DNA from: a virus
Length of the DNA: 21,687 nt
Direction: 5' to 3' (one strand)
IMG/VR virus record: IMGVR_UViG_3300021963_000746
Span: 1-21,687 of that record
The position numbers and the translations under genes were made by a program. Below are positions 7,956 to 21,687 of this stretch, piece by piece. Position 1 is the first letter of the stretch. The number at the start of each line of letters is the position of its first letter. The notes below the pieces were generated by a model that was not told where the DNA came from, made no database searches, and saw only the letters and a list, made by a program, of their open reading frames with translations.

Positions 7956-7986
7956 GACCCCTGGCTTACGCTGGGGGTTTTTTTTT
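7956..7986 (+). terminator. Strong rho-independent terminator
   Basis: ACCCCTGGC (7957-7965) pairs with GCTGGGGGT (7970-7978) around the loop TTAC; all nine pairs form, two as G-U. The T-rich tract runs from 7978 to 7986. It is by far the most GC-rich hairpin in the window. It closes the 5838-7933 head operon and separates it from the sigma-like and terminase operon. Confidence 0.9.
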
Positions 7987-8042: not shown

Positions 8043-8558
8043 TTGGATTTAAACACATACATAAATAAAAATTTTGATAACCTATTCCAGGCTGCCAAAA
8101 ATATTACCAAAGGTCATGATTTAACCGATGATTTATTTCAACACTGTATCGAAGTATTATTAACCGATAAGAATGAAGAAAAGATACAATTACTGATTGA
8201 CAAAAACCAACTGCAATATTATTTTGTTTCAATTCTAATTCGCAATTACCATTCATCCACATCCAGGTTCCATTACCAATATCGCAAAGGAAGCGATTTA
8301 AAGGCCGATAATGATGTATATAATATCCAAGTACCAGATGAAGGCTTTGATTACGACAAAGAAGCTAAAATAACCTTTATCGAAGGTGAATTGGATGAAC
8401 TTGAATGGTACGATAGACAAATGGTAAAATTATACTTTGAAGAAGGTATGTCATATCAAAAAATATCTGAATTTACAAATATACCCAAAACCAGTTGTTA
8501 CAATACAGTTACACAAATTAAGAATAAGATAAAAGACAAATACGATGGCTGTAATTAA
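8043..8558 (+). CDS. Sigma-70-region-4-like helix-turn-helix protein (TTG start)
   Basis: A 171-residue protein. An in-frame stop at 8028-8030 and the absence of any ATG before the DRQMVKLY segment leave TTG 8043 as the likely start. The N-terminal part (LNTYINKNFDNLFQAAKNIT, GHDLTDDLFQHCIEVLL) resembles sigma region 2-like helices. A central linker follows, and residues about 118-163 (LEWYDRQMVKLYFEEGMSYQ, then KISEFTNIPKTSCYNTVTQI) form a helix-turn-helix like sigma region 4. Such ECF-like proteins occur before the terminase genes of Bacteroidota phages. It may redirect host RNA polymerase to late promoters or only bind DNA. The final 14 bases overlap the next gene. Confidence 0.65.
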   Translation: MDLNTYINKNFDNLFQAAKNITKGHDLTDDLFQHCIEVLLTDKNEEKIQLLIDKNQLQYYFVSILIRNYHSSTSRFHYQYRKGSDLKADNDVYNIQVPDEGFDYDKEAKITFIEGELDELEWYDRQMVKLYFEEGMSYQKISEFTNIPKTSCYNTVTQIKNKIKDKYDGCN

Positions 8559-9883: not shown

Positions 9884-11122
9884 ATGCAAATAACATTAGA
9901 AGGTGCCGAACTATTTCCATGGCAAAAACAGGTGTATAATTCATTTGTAAATGATGATTACAAAACATATGTGTTAAATACGTCCAGACAGATTGGTAAG
10001 TCATTGCTTATCAGCCAGTTGGTATTGCATTCAGCGATTAACAATGAAAAGGTTATCGTGGGGGTGGTATCATTAACGTATAAACAGGTTAAACTTATTT
10101 ACAATAGCATCAGCAATATATTAGCGAATACACCAATTGTTAGTTCGGATAACAAGTCAGAACTTGAAATAAAGTTGGTCAATGGGTCAGTTATTAAATT
10201 CTTTTCCATCCAGAACTATGATGCAATTCGTGGTCAGACATTTGAATTTTTGGCGGTGGATGAAGCGGCTTATATCCCACCAAATGTGTATCAACAGGTA
10301 TTGCAACCAACCACCCTAGCCAGGGGTCGCAAAACGGTTCTATGTTCAACACCAAGGGGTATCAATTACTTCTATGATATATTTATGCGTGGGATGGATG
10401 AAGATGATAAAACAACCATATCATTCAAATTTGATTACACAGCTAACCCCTATTTTAATTTGGATGAAATACATGCTATTAAAAAGCAATTACCAGATGG
10501 AATATTTAGGGCTGAATACTTGGGTGAATTTAGTGAAAATAGTTCGGTATTTGGTAATATAAAAGATGTGTGTATCCACCATGAATATCCAACCCCAAGT
10601 GGTAATTTATTCTGTGGTATTGATGTTGGTTTATTCCATGACTTTGCTGTGGCATCTATATTCGACAGTACAGGTAATTTGGTTGCATTTTACCGTAGCA
10701 AAACTGGTAGCATAAATAAATTAAATTCAGAACTTGAAGAATTTTTAAAGAAGCATAAACCCACAAAAACCCTTATAGAATGGAATTCAATTGGTGTATC
10801 GGTCTATGAATATTTACAACCCAGAATAAGGGGTGTAGAAGGCTTCAAAACAACCGCTGTGTCGAAGCCAGACCTTATTAACCAACTACAGAATAGTATT
10901 GAAGATAAGCGGATCAAATTACCCCACCAGCATATGGTGCCAGAAATATATGATGAATTGGTAAACTTTAGCTTTAACTATAGTGAAAAGACTAGGGCCA
11001 TCCAATATTCAGCATTGCCAGGAAAACATGATGATATTGTCATCAGCTTAGCATTGGCCAACAAGATATTTGTTGAAGCCAACTTTAGCATCAAACCAAA
11101 GGTGCGTGTCCGATTTGGATAA
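9884..11122 (+). CDS. terL: Terminase large subunit
   Basis: A 412-residue packaging ATPase/nuclease. ATPase motifs: adenine-binding FPWQKQVY (11-18), Walker A SRQIGKS (34-40), Walker B FLAVDEAA (122-129, Asp126 and Glu127) and coupling motif STP (155-157). Nuclease residues are visible as the RNase-H-like CGIDVG (Asp247), LIEWN (Glu299) and HDD (Asp383/384 in GKHDDIVISLA). All expected acidic positions are present, so it looks intact. It pumps DNA into the prohead through the portal. The size is compact but within range. It follows the small subunit by one base and ends 33 bases before the tail block. Confidence 0.95.
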   Translation: MQITLEGAELFPWQKQVYNSFVNDDYKTYVLNTSRQIGKSLLISQLVLHSAINNEKVIVGVVSLTYKQVKLIYNSISNILANTPIVSSDNKSELEIKLVNGSVIKFFSIQNYDAIRGQTFEFLAVDEAAYIPPNVYQQVLQPTTLARGRKTVLCSTPRGINYFYDIFMRGMDEDDKTTISFKFDYTANPYFNLDEIHAIKKQLPDGIFRAEYLGEFSENSSVFGNIKDVCIHHEYPTPSGNLFCGIDVGLFHDFAVASIFDSTGNLVAFYRSKTGSINKLNSELEEFLKKHKPTKTLIEWNSIGVSVYEYLQPRIRGVEGFKTTAVSKPDLINQLQNSIEDKRIKLPHQHMVPEIYDELVNFSFNYSEKTRAIQYSALPGKHDDIVISLALANKIFVEANFSIKPKVRVRFG

Positions 11123-11155: not shown

Positions 11156-11818
11156 ATGAAAGAAATAACGCTAAAAAATAAGAAGGTGTACAACATACCA
11201 AACAACTGGTCAGAACTGGCCATGGGCAAATATATTAAAATTAGTTCTTTGGTTAAAAAATTCGAAGGGATTGATATTGATGACAAAATTTTTAATGAAC
11301 AGATTTTACCTAAAATAGCTGAAATTATTTTGGGTGTTACTGAAAAGGAATTGAAACAGTTTACTGTGGTTGAATACAGCCAGATTAGGGAAGCACTTAA
11401 TTTTATTAATGAACCACTACCTAAGTTTATCCCGAAAACACAAAGTGTTTCAAATGAATTTAAAATAAAAATGACCGACTTAAATGAATTAAAATTTGGT
11501 ACATGGTCTGATGTGAACCACCTTATGGGGTTGGACCCTGTGGGTAACTTACCAATGATTTTTGGTATGCTGGTGACCATCGAAAGAATAAAGCCATGGT
11601 ATAAATTCTGGTCCAAAACTGAAGAAGTTAAAGATGATGAATATTTGGATGTAATTAATAACCTACCAATGTCAGAAATTTTCGCAATTAACAATTTTTT
11701 TTTGCTTACAATGATGGTGTTAAAGCAAAATATTCTATCCTCTTCAGCCCCAGCGGAAATGAAGGTACAAGTCATGAAGCAATTTTCGCTAATGGATGGT
11801 CTTACTACATTTGGATAA
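11156..11818 (+). CDS. Putative tail assembly chaperone (0-frame product)
   Basis: A 220-residue protein. It begins with basic strand-like residues (EITLKNKKVYNIPNNWSELAMG), a start I recall from Bacteroidota-phage tail genes. A helical core follows (LPKIAEIILGVTEKELKQF, YSQIREALNFINE) and then MGLDPVGNLPMIFGMLVTIE, with a hydrophobic C-terminus after a run of nine T (11695-11703). The T run is decoded in frame as FFL, and the -1 frame opens directly there and reaches the following small gene. Short product plus frameshifted longer product, upstream of a tape measure gene, is the signature of tail assembly chaperones. No homology is certain by eye, and the gene sits farther upstream of the tape measure than usual. 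Confidence 0.5.
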   Translation: MKEITLKNKKVYNIPNNWSELAMGKYIKISSLVKKFEGIDIDDKIFNEQILPKIAEIILGVTEKELKQFTVVEYSQIREALNFINEPLPKFIPKTQSVSNEFKIKMTDLNELKFGTWSDVNHLMGLDPVGNLPMIFGMLVTIERIKPWYKFWSKTEEVKDDEYLDVINNLPMSEIFAINNFFLLTMMVLKQNILSSSAPAEMKVQVMKQFSLMDGLTTFG

Positions 11819-11973
11819 TGGATTTATGTGGGGAAAATGTGTTAAAAATAAATGAAGCGGTTGATATGAAGGTATCGCAAGCCTTAACATTCTTAGCGTA
11901 CAAAACATCCAAAAATAATATGATAGAAGCTATCAGAAAAGAAGAAGAAATGAAAAGCAAATACAGAAGATAA
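11692..11973 (+). other. Candidate programmed -1 frameshift: T9 slip site and -1 extension
   Basis: In the 11156 frame the bases split as AAT TTT TTT TTG, so T TTT TTT and T TTT TTG slippery heptamers both occur (9 T at 11695-11703). The -1 frame has a stop at 11689-11691 and is then open to TAA 11971-11973. A slip at the T run yields a 272-residue fusion: 182-183 zero-frame residues followed by FAYNDGVKAKYSILFSPSGN and the rest, including all of the small downstream ORF. The alternative is an error in homopolymer length. I see no strong downstream stem by eye. Confidence 0.55.
11818..11973 (+). CDS. Small downstream ORF / C-terminal part of frameshift product
   Basis: ATG 11818 overlaps the previous stop as TAATG and gives 51 residues ending at TAA 11971-11973. 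It contains a helical SQALTFLAYKTSKNNMIEAI and a basic end (MKSKYRR). It is in the -1 frame relative to 11156-11818, and that frame continues open upstream to 11692. It may be translated separately by coupling, only as part of the fusion, or both. Small helical proteins in this position resemble the second half of chaperone pairs such as lambda gpG-T. The stop overlaps the next ATG. Confidence 0.5.
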   Translation: MDLCGENVLKINEAVDMKVSQALTFLAYKTSKNNMIEAIRKEEEMKSKYRR

Positions 11974-12413
11974 TGAACTATAGTCAATTAACAAACTACC
12001 TTACAACAACCGCTGGCAACCACTTTAATGTGGCGTATTCAGAAGCTGGTTATTTGGAAAACCTTAACTGGGGTGAAAACAAATACGTGGCCGTTTATTT
12101 CGTGTGCCAACCTGGTACATTCAGCATAAACAAAATAAGATACAACATGACCATGATAGTGGCCGACATTATGGATGATGCAACCTTGCAACAAATTACC
12201 AAACAAAGTAACTGTTTCGAAATTGGTAGGGACATCATCAACCAGGTATTGATTGATAGTCAAAACAACACCTTCGACCTATTAGAAGATAGTGTGGTGT
12301 TTACCCCATTCACTGATAACCTACCAGATTTGTGTACAGGATTTCAGTTCGATTTTGTTATCGAAATATTAAATATAAACAATTGTAACTTACCATTTGC
12401 AATAGGGAACTAA
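11973..12413 (+). CDS. Probable tail completion / neck protein
   Basis: A 146-residue protein with both ends overlapping neighbours as TAATG. Alternating strands and helices are visible: YVAVYFVCQPGTFS, KIRYNMTMIVADIM, then TKQSNCFEIGRDIINQVLID and a C-terminal FQFDFVIEILNINNCNLP. The pattern of an N-terminal helix (NYSQLTNYLTTTAG), an antiparallel sheet and a late Cys strand (DLCTGFQFDFVIEI) resembles tail terminator or completion proteins of siphophages. These cap the tail tube or join it to the head. The following gp10-like gene supports the neck context. The family is not certain. Confidence 0.5.
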   Translation: MNYSQLTNYLTTTAGNHFNVAYSEAGYLENLNWGENKYVAVYFVCQPGTFSINKIRYNMTMIVADIMDDATLQQITKQSNCFEIGRDIINQVLIDSQNNTFDLLEDSVVFTPFTDNLPDLCTGFQFDFVIEILNINNCNLPFAIGN

Positions 12414-12865
12414 TGAATTTAATATCACCAGAATTAATGAAGGCCTTAGGGGATGAACTAAAAAAGAATTTGGTTCAAGAACTAAGACGCACAAAAGCGA
12501 TTGCCACAGGTGATTTAATTAATTCACTAGACATTCAAGTTGAAAAAACGAATGATGGTGCAATTATATCTTTAGCTGGGAATGATTATATCACCTTCAT
12601 TGAAAAAGGTCGTAAAAGGGGCAAATATGCGCCAATTAAGGCACTTGAAAGGTGGGTGATGGCAAAAGGTATTGCAACTGGTGCGAAAAAGGTTAAAGCA
12701 ATAGCGTTTGCGATAAATAATAAAATTAAAAAAGAAGGTATCAGACCAAGACCAATTCTGGAAAATGCGTACACAGGTGGATTGCCAATGTATGATAGAA
12801 TTGTAACCCAAGTTTTGGAAAGGGACCTTAACAAATATCTTGAAGAAAAATTAAATAACTTATAA
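12413..12865 (+). CDS. HK97 gp10-like head-tail/neck protein
   Basis: A 150-residue protein typical of the HK97-gp10 family. It has an N-terminal amphipathic helix (LMKALGDELKKNLVQELRRT) followed by TGDLINSLDIQVE. The diagnostic central block (YITFIEKGRKRGKYAPIKAL, then ERWVMAKGI) combines Y-x-x-F-I-E-x-G-R-x-x-G with I-x-x-L-x-x-W. Further on, KAIAFAINNKIKKEGIRPRP and a C-terminal helix follow. Such proteins sit at the head-tail junction or complete the tail. The start overlaps the stop of the upstream completion-like gene, and one base separates it from the tip gene downstream. Confidence 0.75.
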   Translation: MNLISPELMKALGDELKKNLVQELRRTKAIATGDLINSLDIQVEKTNDGAIISLAGNDYITFIEKGRKRGKYAPIKALERWVMAKGIATGAKKVKAIAFAINNKIKKEGIRPRPILENAYTGGLPMYDRIVTQVLERDLNKYLEEKLNNL

Positions 12866-14784: not shown

Positions 14785-17700
14785 ATGATTAAAAAGACAG
14801 AACTTTATATCGAAAACAGACAGATTGACCTATTTGGGGATGAAGCATTCTTATTGAACTTTAACGTGGCTGATATTAGTGATATATCGGCCAAAGCTGC
14901 ATCGTATTCCAAAGAAGTTGATATACCAGCCACAAAGGAAAACAACAAAACATTTAGCTACCTTTTTAACGTAAGTTCTGAAGGTTATTTTAACCCAATA
15001 TCAAAGAAAACATCTGAAGTGTATGTGGATGGTGTTTGTGTAATGCGTGGATATTTTAAATTAAATAGCATAACAATTATTGATGCTGAATATGTAACTT
15101 ATCATGGGGTTATTTATGAAGATAGTATTAACTTTGTACAAGCCCTTGGTGACCTTGAATTATCAAACTTGGTATTACCACTTACAGGAACTACAACAAC
15201 CCCTACTGGATCAAGTGGGACCCTTATAATTAATCAACTTACTGGAACCGATTACCGTTTTGTACCACCAATTGGTGGGCCTAGCCCATCACCAGCAAAA
15301 AGAATTTATAACGCAAATTATAATAACGTAATTACAACTGGTGGAATTTTTGGTTCACTACAACCTATTGATAAAAATATACCTAATGCACCATGGTCTG
15401 GGGTATCAACATTTTATAGTCCAACCACAGTTAATGCATTTGTGGCTTTGCAACCTATTTTAATTAATTTAACACCATCAATTCAAATGTCACCATCAAG
15501 AACGGTTACATGGCAATGGTATAAGGTTACACCATCTGGTTCAACTTATTTACATACACCAGTTGGCGGTTCATATGGTGGTAACTTTTTAACATCATCA
15601 ATTACAACCCCATCTGGTAACGTTAACTTAAATACTGGTGATGGTATTTATCTTTTAATACGTGATTTAAACCCTGTAGCATATGTTGGTTCAACCCCAC
15701 CAGCACCAATTGGGTTTACATCAGCTTCACAAATTACTGGTACAATACAAGGAACATCAACAGCGCCTGTTAACAACTTGTTAATAAACGAAAGCTTTAT
15801 TTTAAATAACATAAATTCTGCTGTCAATTCAGATAACAGTGATATATGTTTTCCATTAGTGGATTATAACCAAACATTTCCTTATTCAGCTACCAATAAA
15901 AAGAATAGCCAATTAAATGAATATGAAAAACCTGGTGTGCGTGTTAAATTTGAAGACTTAAGACCAGCTGTTTTTGTTAAGAAAGTATGGGATGCTGTAT
16001 TCAAACAAAGTGGTTTTAAATACAAGTCAAAATTCCTTGACACCAATGCTGATTTATTTAAGAAGCTTATTCTAATTGGTGGAATGGAAGAAGATGAAGT
16101 ACAGTCATTGCAATATGAAAATGTGTTGACTGGTACAACCCAATATCTATTAACCGAACCAAGTCAAGATGTTGAAACAAACCCTGGTGTGGCCAGTTAT
16201 GTTTATGATTATAAAGCATTTTTATTGGGTGGTAAGGTACCAGCATCATCACCAACAAATTATTGGTTTAAAAAATATATAAGACCAACTTATACAGAAA
16301 ATTTAAAGGTTAAATATACCGATGCAAACCGTACCAATGCACAACATGGTTTTTCTGGTAATGAATATGGTGATGTATTAAAAGCAATGGTTGCTGGTAA
16401 ATACAAAATACAAGCACAGATTAAAGGAACATCCCAGTCTGTTATGTATGGTTCAAACGTTGCAGCACCAAACAAACAAGGTATTACTTATCGTCTTAAA
16501 ATTGAAGTTATTGCTAGTGGTTCATTTAATAATGACCCTGTATTATTTACAGCCCCAGCTAAAAGCAAATGGGAAGAAAAAAAGGTTATAACATTTAAAC
16601 GTGAACCAGTTGCTGGCGACCAAGATTTTACACTTACATTTGATGAAACAATTGACCTTGAACAAGGTGATTTGGCAAGGGTTGTATTATATGCTTCAGC
16701 TGATGCACAACTTGACCCAAGTAACACAGATGGAACAGTATATAATTCAAAAACCTTATTAAAGGTTGATGGCAGCTGTTATGTTAAATATTACAGATTA
16801 GGTTCATGGATGGGTTATGAAGCAACATCGCTTACCAACATGCTTCCTAGGTCTATGAAACAAAGTGAATTTATTATAAGCATCACAAAGATGTTTAACT
16901 TATATTTTGAACCAGATAAACAAGACCCAAGAACAATTTATGTTGAACCTAGGGATACCTACTATGAAGATGGGCGTGTATTGAACTGGGAAAAGAAGCT
17001 GGATTATTCCAAACCAATTGATATTAATATTTTGCCACACGATCAGGCAAAAAGCTTTGTATTCAAATATGAAGATGATGGTGCGGATTATTATACTGAA
17101 CAATTTAAAAAGTTTACACCAAATGGGTTAACATTCGGTTCATATCAATTTGTTTCAGATGATGAATATGTTACAGAAACAACTGAATTATCACCAATAT
17201 TTGCAGCATCTTATTTGCAAAAAATAAGTGGTACAGACCCATCAAATGGTTATACTGGTGTTGATGCAAACCCAATGGTTATCACCAAAATAATTGACCA
17301 GGATAGTCAAAAACCTGGTTATAATGGTACACCATCTGATTGGAAAAAAGAAGCACGTATTCTTATCTATGGGGGTAAAATAGCATTACCACCTTATGAA
17401 TACAGAAACTACCAATTCTTTTTAACATCTAACGAACCAGATGGTGATGTATATGAAATTGATTTTGCGTATTATCCTTATGCTGGTCACTATGACAAAC
17501 CAGTTGAACCAAAGGTTGATATTAATTTTTACACTGATACACACTATTTGCCTACCACATACTGGCAAAACAATTTTGGTGTGGCTAATAATATAGCAAA
17601 CCCAAGTTTTTCAACTACATCAATTAACTTATCAGCAGTTTCTGTTGGTCAGAACGTTGTATTGAATTATACAGGTTCAAACTATTTTACTGTTAACCAA

Positions 17701-18744
17701 TACGTAAATAAATATGTTAGGGTTCAAAGTCAAACTGTACCTAACACCTATTTCATGGCTTTGATTGTATCAGCAACATCAACAACGTTAACCCTTAAGA
17801 TTACAGAAATATACGGTACAGCAACCGTTAACTACTGGAAATTAACATTGGTAGATGTTCAAATGAAATACAATTTATTCAATGTATTCTACAAACAACA
17901 GATGATTGAATTGACTGACCAAACAGCTAGGTTAATGACATGTAATATATATTTGACACCAACTGATATAGCAAACTTTAAGTTTAATGATATTGTATAT
18001 ACACATGGTGAATACTGGCGTGTAAATAAAATTATTGACTTTGATACATCATCTGATGTTAACCAAACAACCAAGGTTGAATTAATTAAAATTGTTAGGG
18101 CACAAACCAATAAATTAATTGATTATATAGCTGGTGGTTATTTGGGTATCGCTGGTGGTACTGGTGGTAGTACAACAACTACAGGAACTGGTACGTTAAG
18201 TGGTAATACCCCATCGGTTGTTCAATTAGGTCCAGCTGGGACCCAAAGTTTCTATACAACAGATACACCAAGTCAATTAAATGTATATCGTAATTCTATT
18301 ATCCAGGATACTGAAGGTTTGGTACCTACATTTTTCAATAAAGAAGTAAACGTTTACACAGGTCCACAAGATTTAACCGATACTGTTGTAAAAATTGGTA
18401 ATGACCTTAATGTTGTTAGGGAATTTGCGAATATTAAACCAATTGGTGAAAGCATTATTTTAACTGAAGCGGATGCTGAAAATTTAACTGTTATCCCAGA
18501 AGGTATTGGTCAGGTGTATTTTGAAAACACCAACAAACGTATTCTATTTAATATCGCATTACAGGATGTGGCACCAGATGGGTTTGTAGTTAATTTTGCA
18601 CCATTGGATGATACCTATATGGCTATTATGATGATTGAAAATGGTAATGCTAGTTCAAATGCGATTTTCCCTATTACCCTTGATTATGGTCTTAAATGTA
18701 CATATGATGCCACAAGAAGAATTTGGAATGTGCAACCAGTTTAA
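14785..18744 (+). CDS. Large tail tip / baseplate hub-like protein
   Basis: A 1319-residue protein. Residues 1-130 (KTELYIENRQIDLFGDEAFL, then SYSKEVDIPATKENNKTFSY) match the N-terminal pattern of large Bacteroidota-phage tail proteins. Residues about 130-335 are a Ser/Thr/Pro/Gly-rich beta region. Residues about 375-660 include RVKFEDLRPAVFVKKVWDAV and a beta sandwich (GKYKIQAQIKGTS, EEKKVITFKREPV). A conserved hub-like block follows near 680-800 (MLPRSMKQSEFIISITKMFN, IYVEPRDTYYEDGRVLNWEK, SFVFKYEDDGADY). A Gly/Thr-rich linker (about 1115-1140) leads to a C-terminal domain. It likely forms the tail tip and carries the tube end; no lytic motif was seen. It starts one base after the upstream gene. 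Confidence 0.62.
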   Translation: MIKKTELYIENRQIDLFGDEAFLLNFNVADISDISAKAASYSKEVDIPATKENNKTFSYLFNVSSEGYFNPISKKTSEVYVDGVCVMRGYFKLNSITIIDAEYVTYHGVIYEDSINFVQALGDLELSNLVLPLTGTTTTPTGSSGTLIINQLTGTDYRFVPPIGGPSPSPAKRIYNANYNNVITTGGIFGSLQPIDKNIPNAPWSGVSTFYSPTTVNAFVALQPILINLTPSIQMSPSRTVTWQWYKVTPSGSTYLHTPVGGSYGGNFLTSSITTPSGNVNLNTGDGIYLLIRDLNPVAYVGSTPPAPIGFTSASQITGTIQGTSTAPVNNLLINESFILNNINSAVNSDNSDICFPLVDYNQTFPYSATNKKNSQLNEYEKPGVRVKFEDLRPAVFVKKVWDAVFKQSGFKYKSKFLDTNADLFKKLILIGGMEEDEVQSLQYENVLTGTTQYLLTEPSQDVETNPGVASYVYDYKAFLLGGKVPASSPTNYWFKKYIRPTYTENLKVKYTDANRTNAQHGFSGNEYGDVLKAMVAGKYKIQAQIKGTSQSVMYGSNVAAPNKQGITYRLKIEVIASGSFNNDPVLFTAPAKSKWEEKKVITFKREPVAGDQDFTLTFDETIDLEQGDLARVVLYASADAQLDPSNTDGTVYNSKTLLKVDGSCYVKYYRLGSWMGYEATSLTNMLPRSMKQSEFIISITKMFNLYFEPDKQDPRTIYVEPRDTYYEDGRVLNWEKKLDYSKPIDINILPHDQAKSFVFKYEDDGADYYTEQFKKFTPNGLTFGSYQFVSDDEYVTETTELSPIFAASYLQKISGTDPSNGYTGVDANPMVITKIIDQDSQKPGYNGTPSDWKKEARILIYGGKIALPPYEYRNYQFFLTSNEPDGDVYEIDFAYYPYAGHYDKPVEPKVDINFYTDTHYLPTTYWQNNFGVANNIANPSFSTTSINLSAVSVGQNVVLNYTGSNYFTVNQYVNKYVRVQSQTVPNTYFMALIVSATSTTLTLKITEIYGTATVNYWKLTLVDVQMKYNLFNVFYKQQMIELTDQTARLMTCNIYLTPTDIANFKFNDIVYTHGEYWRVNKIIDFDTSSDVNQTTKVELIKIVRAQTNKLIDYIAGGYLGIAGGTGGSTTTTGTGTLSGNTPSVVQLGPAGTQSFYTTDTPSQLNVYRNSIIQDTEGLVPTFFNKEVNVYTGPQDLTDTVVKIGNDLNVVREFANIKPIGESIILTEADAENLTVIPEGIGQVYFENTNKRILFNIALQDVAPDGFVVNFAPLDDTYMAIMMIENGNASSNAIFPITLDYGLKCTYDATRRIWNVQPV

Positions 18745-18778: not shown

Positions 18779-21687
18779 ATGGCTGACATTAAAAAAACCA
18801 TAGAAGTTGAAATAATATCAAACACAGGACAGGTTGATAAAATATCTGGTACGCTAGATGACGTAAAAAAGAAGATAGACCAAATTGCTAAGATTGCTAA
18901 TGGTTCAATTAAATTTAAACTTGATGGGGTTGAAAAAACTAATGAAGAAATTCAACAGATTACAACCAACACCAAAAAGGCTGAAAAAGAAGCCAAGGGT
19001 TTAACTGATGAATATAAGAATACCGCAAAGGCAGCTGGTGATGCAGCTGATCAAACTGAAAAATTAGGTACAAACACCAAGAAAGCATCTGAAGGTGCCA
19101 AAGGTGGTGGTGGCTTCTTTGGTGGTCTTAAAGAAGGTCTAGGTGATTTGCAAAAGGGTACAGCCCTTTCAGCTGGTTTAGGCGCTGCAATTGGTGGTGG
19201 TGTTGCAACCGCTGCTATTGCCGCTGCAAATGCTATCAAAGATGCTACTATCGCAGCTGTTAATTTCGGTATTGAACTTGAAAAGAATGCATCCCAAATT
19301 GCTAATGTTTTTGGTTTGGCTAAAGATGATGCACTTGCTTTAGCATCACAGATAACAGCAACCACACAAACATTTGGTACTGATTACCAGGAAACATTAT
19401 TGGCTGTAAATGCTGCGCAAAAACAATTTGGTTTATCAGCACAGGAAGCAACCGATTTGGTTAACAACGGTTTGGCCGCTGGTTTAAATATTAACGGTGA
19501 ATTTTTATCATTACTAAATGAATACCCAGCTTATTTTGCTGAAGCTGGTGTATCGGCTGATGGTTTCTTGGCTATCACCCAACAACAAATTGAACAGGGT
19601 ATCTTTTCTGATAAAGGTCTGGACAGTATTAAGGAAGCGAACATCCGTTTACGTGAATTAACCCCAGCCACACAAAAGGCTTTGAATGACATTCAAATAC
19701 CAGCTGATGCTGTTCAAAAAGCTTTGGCTGATGGTTCAAAAACAACCTTTGATATTGTACAGGAAGTATCGGCTAAATTATCTGAATTGGGCCCATCTTC
19801 ACAGGTTGCTGGTCAGGCTATTGCTGATATATTTGGTGGTCCTGGTGAAGATGCTGGTATCAAATTTTTAAGTACATTAAAAGACATCAGTAATGAACAA
19901 GGTTCATTCAATAACAACCTTAGTGGTACAGCTAAAGCACAACTTGAACAACAACAAGCACAGGCTGAATTAAACGCTACCTGGGCATCATTCTTTGAAG
20001 GTGCTGGTAGTGGATTTACTGGAATTAAAACAGCATTCTTACAGTTTGCTACCGCTGCATTGAAAGGTATTGTTGACATTATCAACTACTTCATTGACTT
20101 ATATAACGAAAGTTATGCTGTAAGATATGTAGTTGAAGGTTTAAAACTTAGCTTCAAAAATACTTATGACGTTATTTCAGCTGGTGTAAAACAGATAATT
20201 TTAGCATTCAAAGCTTTGGGTGGTATCGTTAAAGGTGTATTCACCCTTGATTTTGAAGGTATTAAAAAGTCATATACAGATTACCTTGAAAGTACTGGTA
20301 AAAATATAATACAATTAGGTAAAGATGTTAAGGATAATACTGAAGAAGCTATTAAAGCTATCAAAGATGGTTCAAAACAAAAAATTGTATTAAAAACATC
20401 TATTGTTGATGATACCAAACCAGGTACAACAACCAAACCAACTGGTGGTGGTGCCACAGGTGGTGGTAAAGCTTCAACCACTACAACACAAAAAACAGCT
20501 GAACAAATTGCTGATGAAAAGTTCAAAAAGGAAAAGGAAAAACGTGAAGCTGAATTAGCTAATAGTATCGCAAAGATTAATGAAGACCTTGCAGCCAAAT
20601 TAAAAGCCATCAATGAAGACACCGCTTTAAGTGCTGAAGAACGTGCAAATAAAACTAAAGAAGCTGAATTAAACGCACAACTTGAAATTAATAAAGCAAC
20701 CACCACAAGCCTTAATGATATTAAAACAAAGGCTGAAGAAATATTGGGTGAAAGTAGCAAAGAAGCTGCTGATTTAACCAAACAAGTATCTGAACTTGGT
20801 GTCAAAGCTGAACAGTTAAAAGCTGCTATAACCGATGTGGGTACCAAAGGTGCTGCACAGGCATCCAAAGATGCATTGGTTAAAGGTGAAGAAGCTTTAG
20901 AACAGGCTTTAACTAAGATTAAAAAAGAATATTCAGATAAAAGAATAGCTATATCAGAAGATAACACCCTAACTGAAAAGGAAAGACAGGAAGCTTTAAC
21001 ACAACTTGCATCTGATGAAGAAAATGCTAGGATTGCTGCTGCAAAGAATGCATATCAAACGCTAAAAGATAACGCTGTTATCATTGGTGAAGAACGTAAA
21101 GCGGTTGAACAAAAACTTACTAAAGCCATTCAAGATGAAGATGCTAAACGTGAAAAGGATGCTGAAGCAAAAAGAAAAAAGGATATTGAAAAAGCCAAAG
21201 AAACGGCTGATAAAATAGCTGAAATTGCTGGTAAGATTGCTGATGCAATTGGTCAGATTGGTGATGCCATAAACGCTGTTTATGATGTTCAAATTAAACG
21301 AATTGAAGAAGGTTTCGAAAAGGAAAAAGCTGCACAGGAAAAGGCAAATGAAGAACGTTTGGCTAACAACGAATTGACTGATACACAGCAACAAGAATTG
21401 GAAAGACAAAATGCAATTGAATTAGCCAAGATTGAAGAAGAAAAGAACAAAAAAATTAAGGATATTCAAAAGAAACAGGCTGATATTGATTTGGCTATCA
21501 CCATTGCAAACATCATCGCACAAACAGCTTTGGGTGTTGCAAAGGTAACAGGTCAAACTGGTGTGGGTGCTGCACTTGCTGTACCACTTGTACTTGCATC
21601 TGGTGCCGTTCAATTGGCCACAGCAATTGCACAAAGGGCTTCTATCCAAGGTTTAAAACGTGGTGGTTTTGTAAATGGTCCTGGTGG
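18779..21687 (+). CDS. Tail tape measure protein (3' partial)
   Basis: ATG 18779 opens a frame that is still open at the window end, so at least 969 residues. Residues 1-115 are Lys-rich helices (VDKISGTLDDVKKKIDQIAK). A hydrophobic stretch (about 126-162, ALSAGLGAAIGGGVATAAIA) follows. The core (about 163-370) has ATTQTFGTDYQETLLAVNAA, YPAYFAEAGVSADGFLAITQ and SSQVAGQAIADIFGGPGEDA, which match the Bacteroidota-phage tape measure core. Long Lys/Glu/Ala coiled coils occupy about 575-900, then IDLAITIANIIAQTALGVAK and an end in GGFVNGPGG, usually near the C-terminus. It sets tail length and may insert into the membrane during DNA entry. At about 0.15 nm per residue the tail would exceed 140 nm. 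Confidence 0.93.
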   Translation, partial: MADIKKTIEVEIISNTGQVDKISGTLDDVKKKIDQIAKIANGSIKFKLDGVEKTNEEIQQITTNTKKAEKEAKGLTDEYKNTAKAAGDAADQTEKLGTNTKKASEGAKGGGGFFGGLKEGLGDLQKGTALSAGLGAAIGGGVATAAIAAANAIKDATIAAVNFGIELEKNASQIANVFGLAKDDALALASQITATTQTFGTDYQETLLAVNAAQKQFGLSAQEATDLVNNGLAAGLNINGEFLSLLNEYPAYFAEAGVSADGFLAITQQQIEQGIFSDKGLDSIKEANIRLRELTPATQKALNDIQIPADAVQKALADGSKTTFDIVQEVSAKLSELGPSSQVAGQAIADIFGGPGEDAGIKFLSTLKDISNEQGSFNNNLSGTAKAQLEQQQAQAELNATWASFFEGAGSGFTGIKTAFLQFATAALKGIVDIINYFIDLYNESYAVRYVVEGLKLSFKNTYDVISAGVKQIILAFKALGGIVKGVFTLDFEGIKKSYTDYLESTGKNIIQLGKDVKDNTEEAIKAIKDGSKQKIVLKTSIVDDTKPGTTTKPTGGGATGGGKASTTTTQKTAEQIADEKFKKEKEKREAELANSIAKINEDLAAKLKAINEDTALSAEERANKTKEAELNAQLEINKATTTSLNDIKTKAEEILGESSKEAADLTKQVSELGVKAEQLKAAITDVGTKGAAQASKDALVKGEEALEQALTKIKKEYSDKRIAISEDNTLTEKERQEALTQLASDEENARIAAAKNAYQTLKDNAVIIGEERKAVEQKLTKAIQDEDAKREKDAEAKRKKDIEKAKETADKIAEIAGKIADAIGQIGDAINAVYDVQIKRIEEGFEKEKAAQEKANEERLANNELTDTQQQELERQNAIELAKIEEEKNKKIKDIQKKQADIDLAITIANIIAQTALGVAKVTGQTGVGAALAVPLVLASGAVQLATAIAQRASIQGLKRGGFVNGPG

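Follow-up and report, generated by a model that had tools for sequence, protein, structure and literature searches.

A conserved run of nine T as a probable programmed -1 recoding site in a putative tail chaperone gene of Bacteroidota-type phages

The DNA analysed here, hereafter the window, is a complete IMG/VR virus record (IMGVR_UViG_3300021963_000746) of 21,687 bases. It carries, in this order, the genes for terminase, for the two-frame protein that is the subject of this work (the frameshift gene), for a protein of 146 residues, for a tail-completion protein, for two large structural proteins and for the tape measure. The features of this region are as follows.

9884-11122, plus strand: terminase large subunit.
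11156-11818, plus strand: 0-frame ORF of 220 aa, with an N-terminal domain (residues 1-180) followed by a 40-residue 0-frame tail.
11695-11703, plus strand: putative slip site of nine T (T9) in the phase AAT TTT TTT TTG, which holds T_TTT_TTT and T_TTT_TTG.
11695-11973, plus strand: -1 frame extension of 92 aa, which after a slip would be joined to residues 1-180 to give a 272-aa product.
11704-11818, plus strand: overlap in which the 0 and the -1 frame are both open and for which identity and constraint were considered in both frames.
11818-11973, plus strand: nested ORF of 51 aa, which starts at TAATG and encodes the C-terminal portion of the extension.
11973-12413, plus strand: conserved 146-aa tail/neck gene adjoining the frameshift gene, with counterparts of 80-85% identity in five of the nearest relatives.
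12413-12865, plus strand: tail completion/Neck1 protein (HK97 gp10-like; phrog_5, E 9e-7).
14785-18744, plus strand: large structural protein, a relative of phrog_38559.
18779-21685, plus strand: tape measure gene, truncated by the end of the contig (PF10145, 5.6e-13; phrog_1272, 1e-20).

Lists of closed ORFs miss the tape measure gene and contain only spurious minus-strand ORFs at 18779-21685. Elsewhere in the window, a sigma-70 region 4 domain protein (PF08281, E 2e-6) is encoded at 8043-8558, shortly upstream of the terminase genes, and a collagen-repeat tail-fibre-like protein at 825-2213.

At the junction of the two frames the window reads AAC AAT TTT TTT TTG CTT. The last stop of the -1 frame before the T run is TAA 11689-11691, after which 93 codons are open from 11692 to TAA 11971-11973. 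The 0-frame product has 220 residues and the fusion 272 (180 plus 92); on recheck, all these positions and sizes proved to be right as the original prediction had given them. Taken by itself the open -1 frame is weak evidence and not significant, as it stays open through the overlap in 11% of shuffles of the 0-frame codons (P about 0.11). On the given strand of the window the expected number of T9 runs is about 0.5, and the sole other one lies at 7978-7986 and is preceded by a hairpin. This combination of hairpin and T9 (7957-7986), which is located between two genes, is likely an intrinsic terminator; a G-run plus T9 resembling it is found near position 1548 of contig L007.

Used directly as a query, the 220-aa ORF found no relatives in IMG/VR and none in the phage collection, and the terminase found none in IMG/VR and only distant matches in the phage collection. 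The family was reached with the neighbouring gp10-like gene as the query. Since all matches of this gene in the phage collection come from phages of Bacteroidota (Bacteroides, Parabacteroides, Nonlabens, Tenacibaculum, Elizabethkingia), Bacteroidota are the inferred, not the demonstrated, host group; two scans of bacterial genome contigs found no relative. In seven relatives of the window (L005-L010 from the gp10-like scan, of which L005 and L006 agree, and L088) the -1 extension is 45-62% identical to that of the window across all 92 residues, and the upstream 180 residues show 19-24% identity. The extension always lies in the -1 frame in these seven and the junction always reads NNT TTT TTT TTG. 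Within the overlap, identity between the window and each relative amounts to 0.33-0.58 in the -1 frame as compared to 0.17-0.28 in the 0 frame, and the mean identity in the window family is 0.54 and 0.40, respectively.

These values bear on the possibility that the 51-aa ORF is a gene in its own right, expressed by termination and reinitiation without any frameshift. The 0-frame stop of the window indeed overlaps the start of this ORF as TAATG (11816-11820), as it does in the phage isolate P12024L. However, a gene that begins at the ATG at 11818 would not account for the conservation of the -1 frame in the 42 residues ahead of it in the seven relatives; moreover, the near relatives have their 0-frame stop elsewhere and do not keep the TAATG overlap, and homologues exist in which the two parts are fused. 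We thus consider it very unlikely that reinitiation takes the place of a frameshift, and regard it as possibly an additional route to the 51-aa product.

How far does the arrangement extend beyond the nearest relatives? A homology-free scan, which accepted any X_XXY_YYZ heptamer provided that the -1 frame stayed open beyond the stop of the 0 frame, detected this arrangement upstream of gp10 in numerous further diverged loci as well as in isolate P12024L. Further loci came from protein-seeded scans, in which short extension peptides served as seeds and no seed that found a locus overlapped the T run. Each of 80 loci from the L051 family and each of 80 from the L062 family has exactly nine T, and the flanks clearly vary in both. 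After removal of duplicates there are 149 T9 junction contexts, which form nine clusters (extension, 50% identity) and have the run in codon phase 1, 2 and 3 in 21, 126 and 2 cases, respectively. Thus it is the length of the run and not its codon phase that is conserved, with three exceptions, namely T8 in L256, T6A in L259 and T6 in L021. Because T9, the -1 relation and a homologous extension of 83-100 aa recur in about 150 non-identical loci, chance is excluded as their origin. A T8 locus in L018 was rejected as a member of the family, as it belongs to an unrelated in-frame gene. In the L051 family, the gene adjoining the frameshift gene is fused to a long tail-fibre-like part (L051, 3184-5697).

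Both T9 and the -1 relation are also found in two isolates, the Nonlabens phages P12024L (genes 40/41) and P12024S (genes 38/39). Like the window they contain the homologous two-part gene; different from the window, the run stands in codon phase 2 and the two parts are annotated as separate hypothetical genes, as can be seen in the public annotation of the P12024L locus (L083, 24388-24640).

Other relatives carry the two parts in a single frame. In L080/L082 (258 aa) the N-terminal and the C-terminal profile are both matched in one frame, in L048 the C-terminal profile is matched in one frame, and the junction lacks a T run in all of these loci. Likewise, Flavobacterium phage laban6-1 contains both parts in one ORF, gp017, the halves of which are 44-45% identical to gp10 of Flavobacterium phage 6H and to the unannotated stretch that follows this gp10. 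The laban6-1 protein and the L080/L082 contigs hence resemble the window gene in having both domains and differ from it in having them in one continuous frame and without a long T run. As such in-frame fusions exist, the fused protein is a real form of this protein. In Flavobacterium phage 6H itself (L251, 10050-10927, minus strand) the unannotated stretch after gp10 lies in the -1 frame and is 45% identical to the C-terminal half of gp017; T6 and a stop lie between the two parts, and the split is due either to another mechanism or to a sequence error.

The L051 family provides information on selection in the overlap, where the third positions of the -1 frame are the second positions of the 0 frame. 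Over 69 distinct sequences, the mean entropy of the -1 third positions is 0.33 in the overlap as opposed to 1.05 past the 0-frame stop. Both frames of the overlap are therefore under constraint, in keeping with two functional products, and judging from the sequences both products probably matter. A long conserved RNA element in the L051 overlap would be an alternative, which RNA folds in 11 loci do not support. In the L062 family (70 distinct sequences) the 0-frame stop is too near the end for this comparison.

Taken together, we consider it very likely that T9 is a programmed -1 recoding site from which two functional products arise. What the sequences establish is the existence of the site, the -1 frame relation and selection acting on the extension; that both proteins are made is inferred, as there are no RNA or peptide data. 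Normal decoding would yield the protein of 220 residues, and a -1 shift at T9 would yield the protein of 272 residues, in which the same first 180 residues are followed by the conserved C-terminal domain of 92 residues, probably helical. The original prediction of a programmed frameshift at T9 is thus strongly supported by the conserved slip site, frame relation and extension and by the in-frame fused homologues (L080, L048 and laban6-1 gp017). It had proposed to compare homologues for both C-termini and for the T run, and had named homologues lacking both the run and an open -1 extension as a possible refutation; with the conserved extension, the 149 T9 contexts and the dual constraint in the L051 overlap, the comparison did not refute recoding. 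Homopolymers are prone to error and single-frame homologues do exist, so that one continuous gene might in principle have been split by an assembly or sequencing error in the run. However, such an error would have to leave exactly nine T in some 150 different contexts, drawn from numerous assemblies, and in two isolates, and it would not be expected to place the overlap under dual-frame constraint. We regard this explanation as practically ruled out.

In which step of decoding would the shift take place? The original prediction was borne out in placing the recoding at T9. It had, however, taken the slip to be ribosomal, whereas the occurrence of exactly T9 in three codon phases favours slippage of RNA polymerase, and the question is undecided. 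According to the mechanism that we favour, RNA polymerase would slip on T9 and add one U (or drop two) in some of the transcripts. In the absence of RNA data we lean towards this transcriptional route, because exactly nine T are kept whatever the phase and because no RNA structure exceeding that of shuffled sequences follows the site in 11 loci (z -1.0 to +1.1; pseudoknots not modelled). Long T runs are otherwise rare at these loci: the other sense ORFs of at least 120 aa in the loci from the gp10-like scan plus L083 and L088 contain 205 runs of T6, 41 of T7 and 5 of T8, and none of T9 or longer. The lack of T9 there is suggestive and, given the small numbers, no proof of avoidance. Moreover, the T9 contexts satisfy the published criterion for programmed slippage, that is a run of nine A or T that recurs, together with the arrangement of the ORFs, in at least two homologues that are not identical (PMC1088944). 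As a caveat, the T run is also under constraint from the Phe codons that it forms in either frame.

But why would exactly nine T be kept in phases 1, 2 and 3 if a ribosomal -1 heptamer requires only T7 in the correct phase? This is the main difficulty for a purely ribosomal -1 slippage on U_UUU_UUU (or U_UUU_UUG), which would give the same fusion in the manner of the classical phage G/GT genes. In addition, the variety of heptamers known elsewhere is missing here and no downstream stimulator was found in the 11 loci. Then again, U_UUU_UUU stands in the correct phase in all T9 contexts, which is unavoidable for T9, the T8 of L256 still contains it, and -1 ribosomal frameshifts of the G/GT type are well documented (PMC5009743). 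A diverged relative (L259, 1195-1215) has U_UUU_UUA in place of T9 and keeps the -1 relation; as this is a canonical ribosomal site, it speaks for the use of ribosomes in one lineage at least, and L259 possibly represents a switch to ribosomal slippage. All in all, we hold a purely ribosomal shift to be a serious but less probable explanation. Slippage by polymerase and by ribosome may also act together. For dnaX, homologues that use the one or the other route have been described (Larsen et al. 2000, listed in PMC3711429). Returning to polymerase slippage, we put forward only as a tentative hypothesis that many diverse Bacteroidota-type phages make their tail chaperone pair by this route, where other long-tailed phages use the ribosomal frameshift, and that they do so at a run which selection keeps at exactly nine T and which does not occur elsewhere in their larger coding regions. 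We found no description of transcriptional slippage in a phage tail chaperone in the literature searched, which did not include subscription literature.

The designation of the gene as tail-assembly-chaperone-like in the original prediction is plausible and so far only weakly supported. The gene is in synteny with the tape measure and, as had been predicted, belongs to the tail block without being adjacent to the tape measure, from which it is separated by four structural genes of the same series; in laban6-1, gp017 likewise lies upstream of the annotated tape measure with genes in between. In this it departs from the place of a G/GT gene, which would stand between the genes for the major tail protein and the tape measure and adjoin the latter. 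Conserved -1 relation and conserved C-terminal extension are features that it has in common with G/GT genes. AlphaFold2 predicts residues 1-180 with a mean pLDDT of 89.8 and a pTM of 0.82, and the model of the C-terminal domain is poor (pLDDT 65); one row of the phage collection was left out of the structure predictions. The predicted fold of the N-terminal domain matches those of proteins from P12024S (E 8e-8) and Flavobacterium phage 6H (E 5e-6), and Foldseek against BFVD gives weak matches to three annotated tail assembly chaperones (E 0.018, 0.086 and 0.3, with probabilities of 0.91, 0.97 and 0.18, respectively). One member of the C-terminal family weakly matches ORF12 of phage p2 (E 0.031), which we take to be a tape-measure chaperone. 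There was no match to a solved structure in the PDB and none to a Pfam or PHROG family of assigned function, chaperones included. With no binding data, membership among the tail chaperones is inferred, not proven, and we consider it reasonably probable. Both products are probably needed, as with the G/GT tail chaperones, which load the tape measure and bring in the tail-tube protein.

Our work adds a widespread, unannotated family of probably recoded genes to the Bacteroidota-type phages and would explain why the second half of the gene is missed or split off in annotations. If polymerase slippage holds true, the same two-protein logic of tail assembly would be achieved at another step of decoding, with the ratio of the proteins being set by the exact number of bases in a DNA run. 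Transcriptional slippage is known to occur at A9/T9 in IS elements and mapW (PMC1088944) and also in Shigella mxiE and spa13 and in Thermus dnaX (PMC5009743). With these systems the family described here shares a nine-base homopolymer that joins overlapping ORFs in several non-identical homologues. It differs from them in that slippage is undemonstrated, in its place within a phage structural gene series, in the use of T9 and not A9, and in a far wider conservation. With G/GT of the lambda type (Xu, Hendrix, Duda 2004; reviewed in PMC5009743) it has in common a tail gene with the tape measure downstream, a -1 shift towards the 3' end of the gene, and a short product accompanied by a longer one with a second C-terminal domain. 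Different from G/GT, however, there is no detectable sequence kinship, the N-terminal domain comprises about 180 aa, the 0-frame tail extends to up to 90 codons and four structural genes precede the tape measure, and a single slip sequence, T9, is used almost everywhere.
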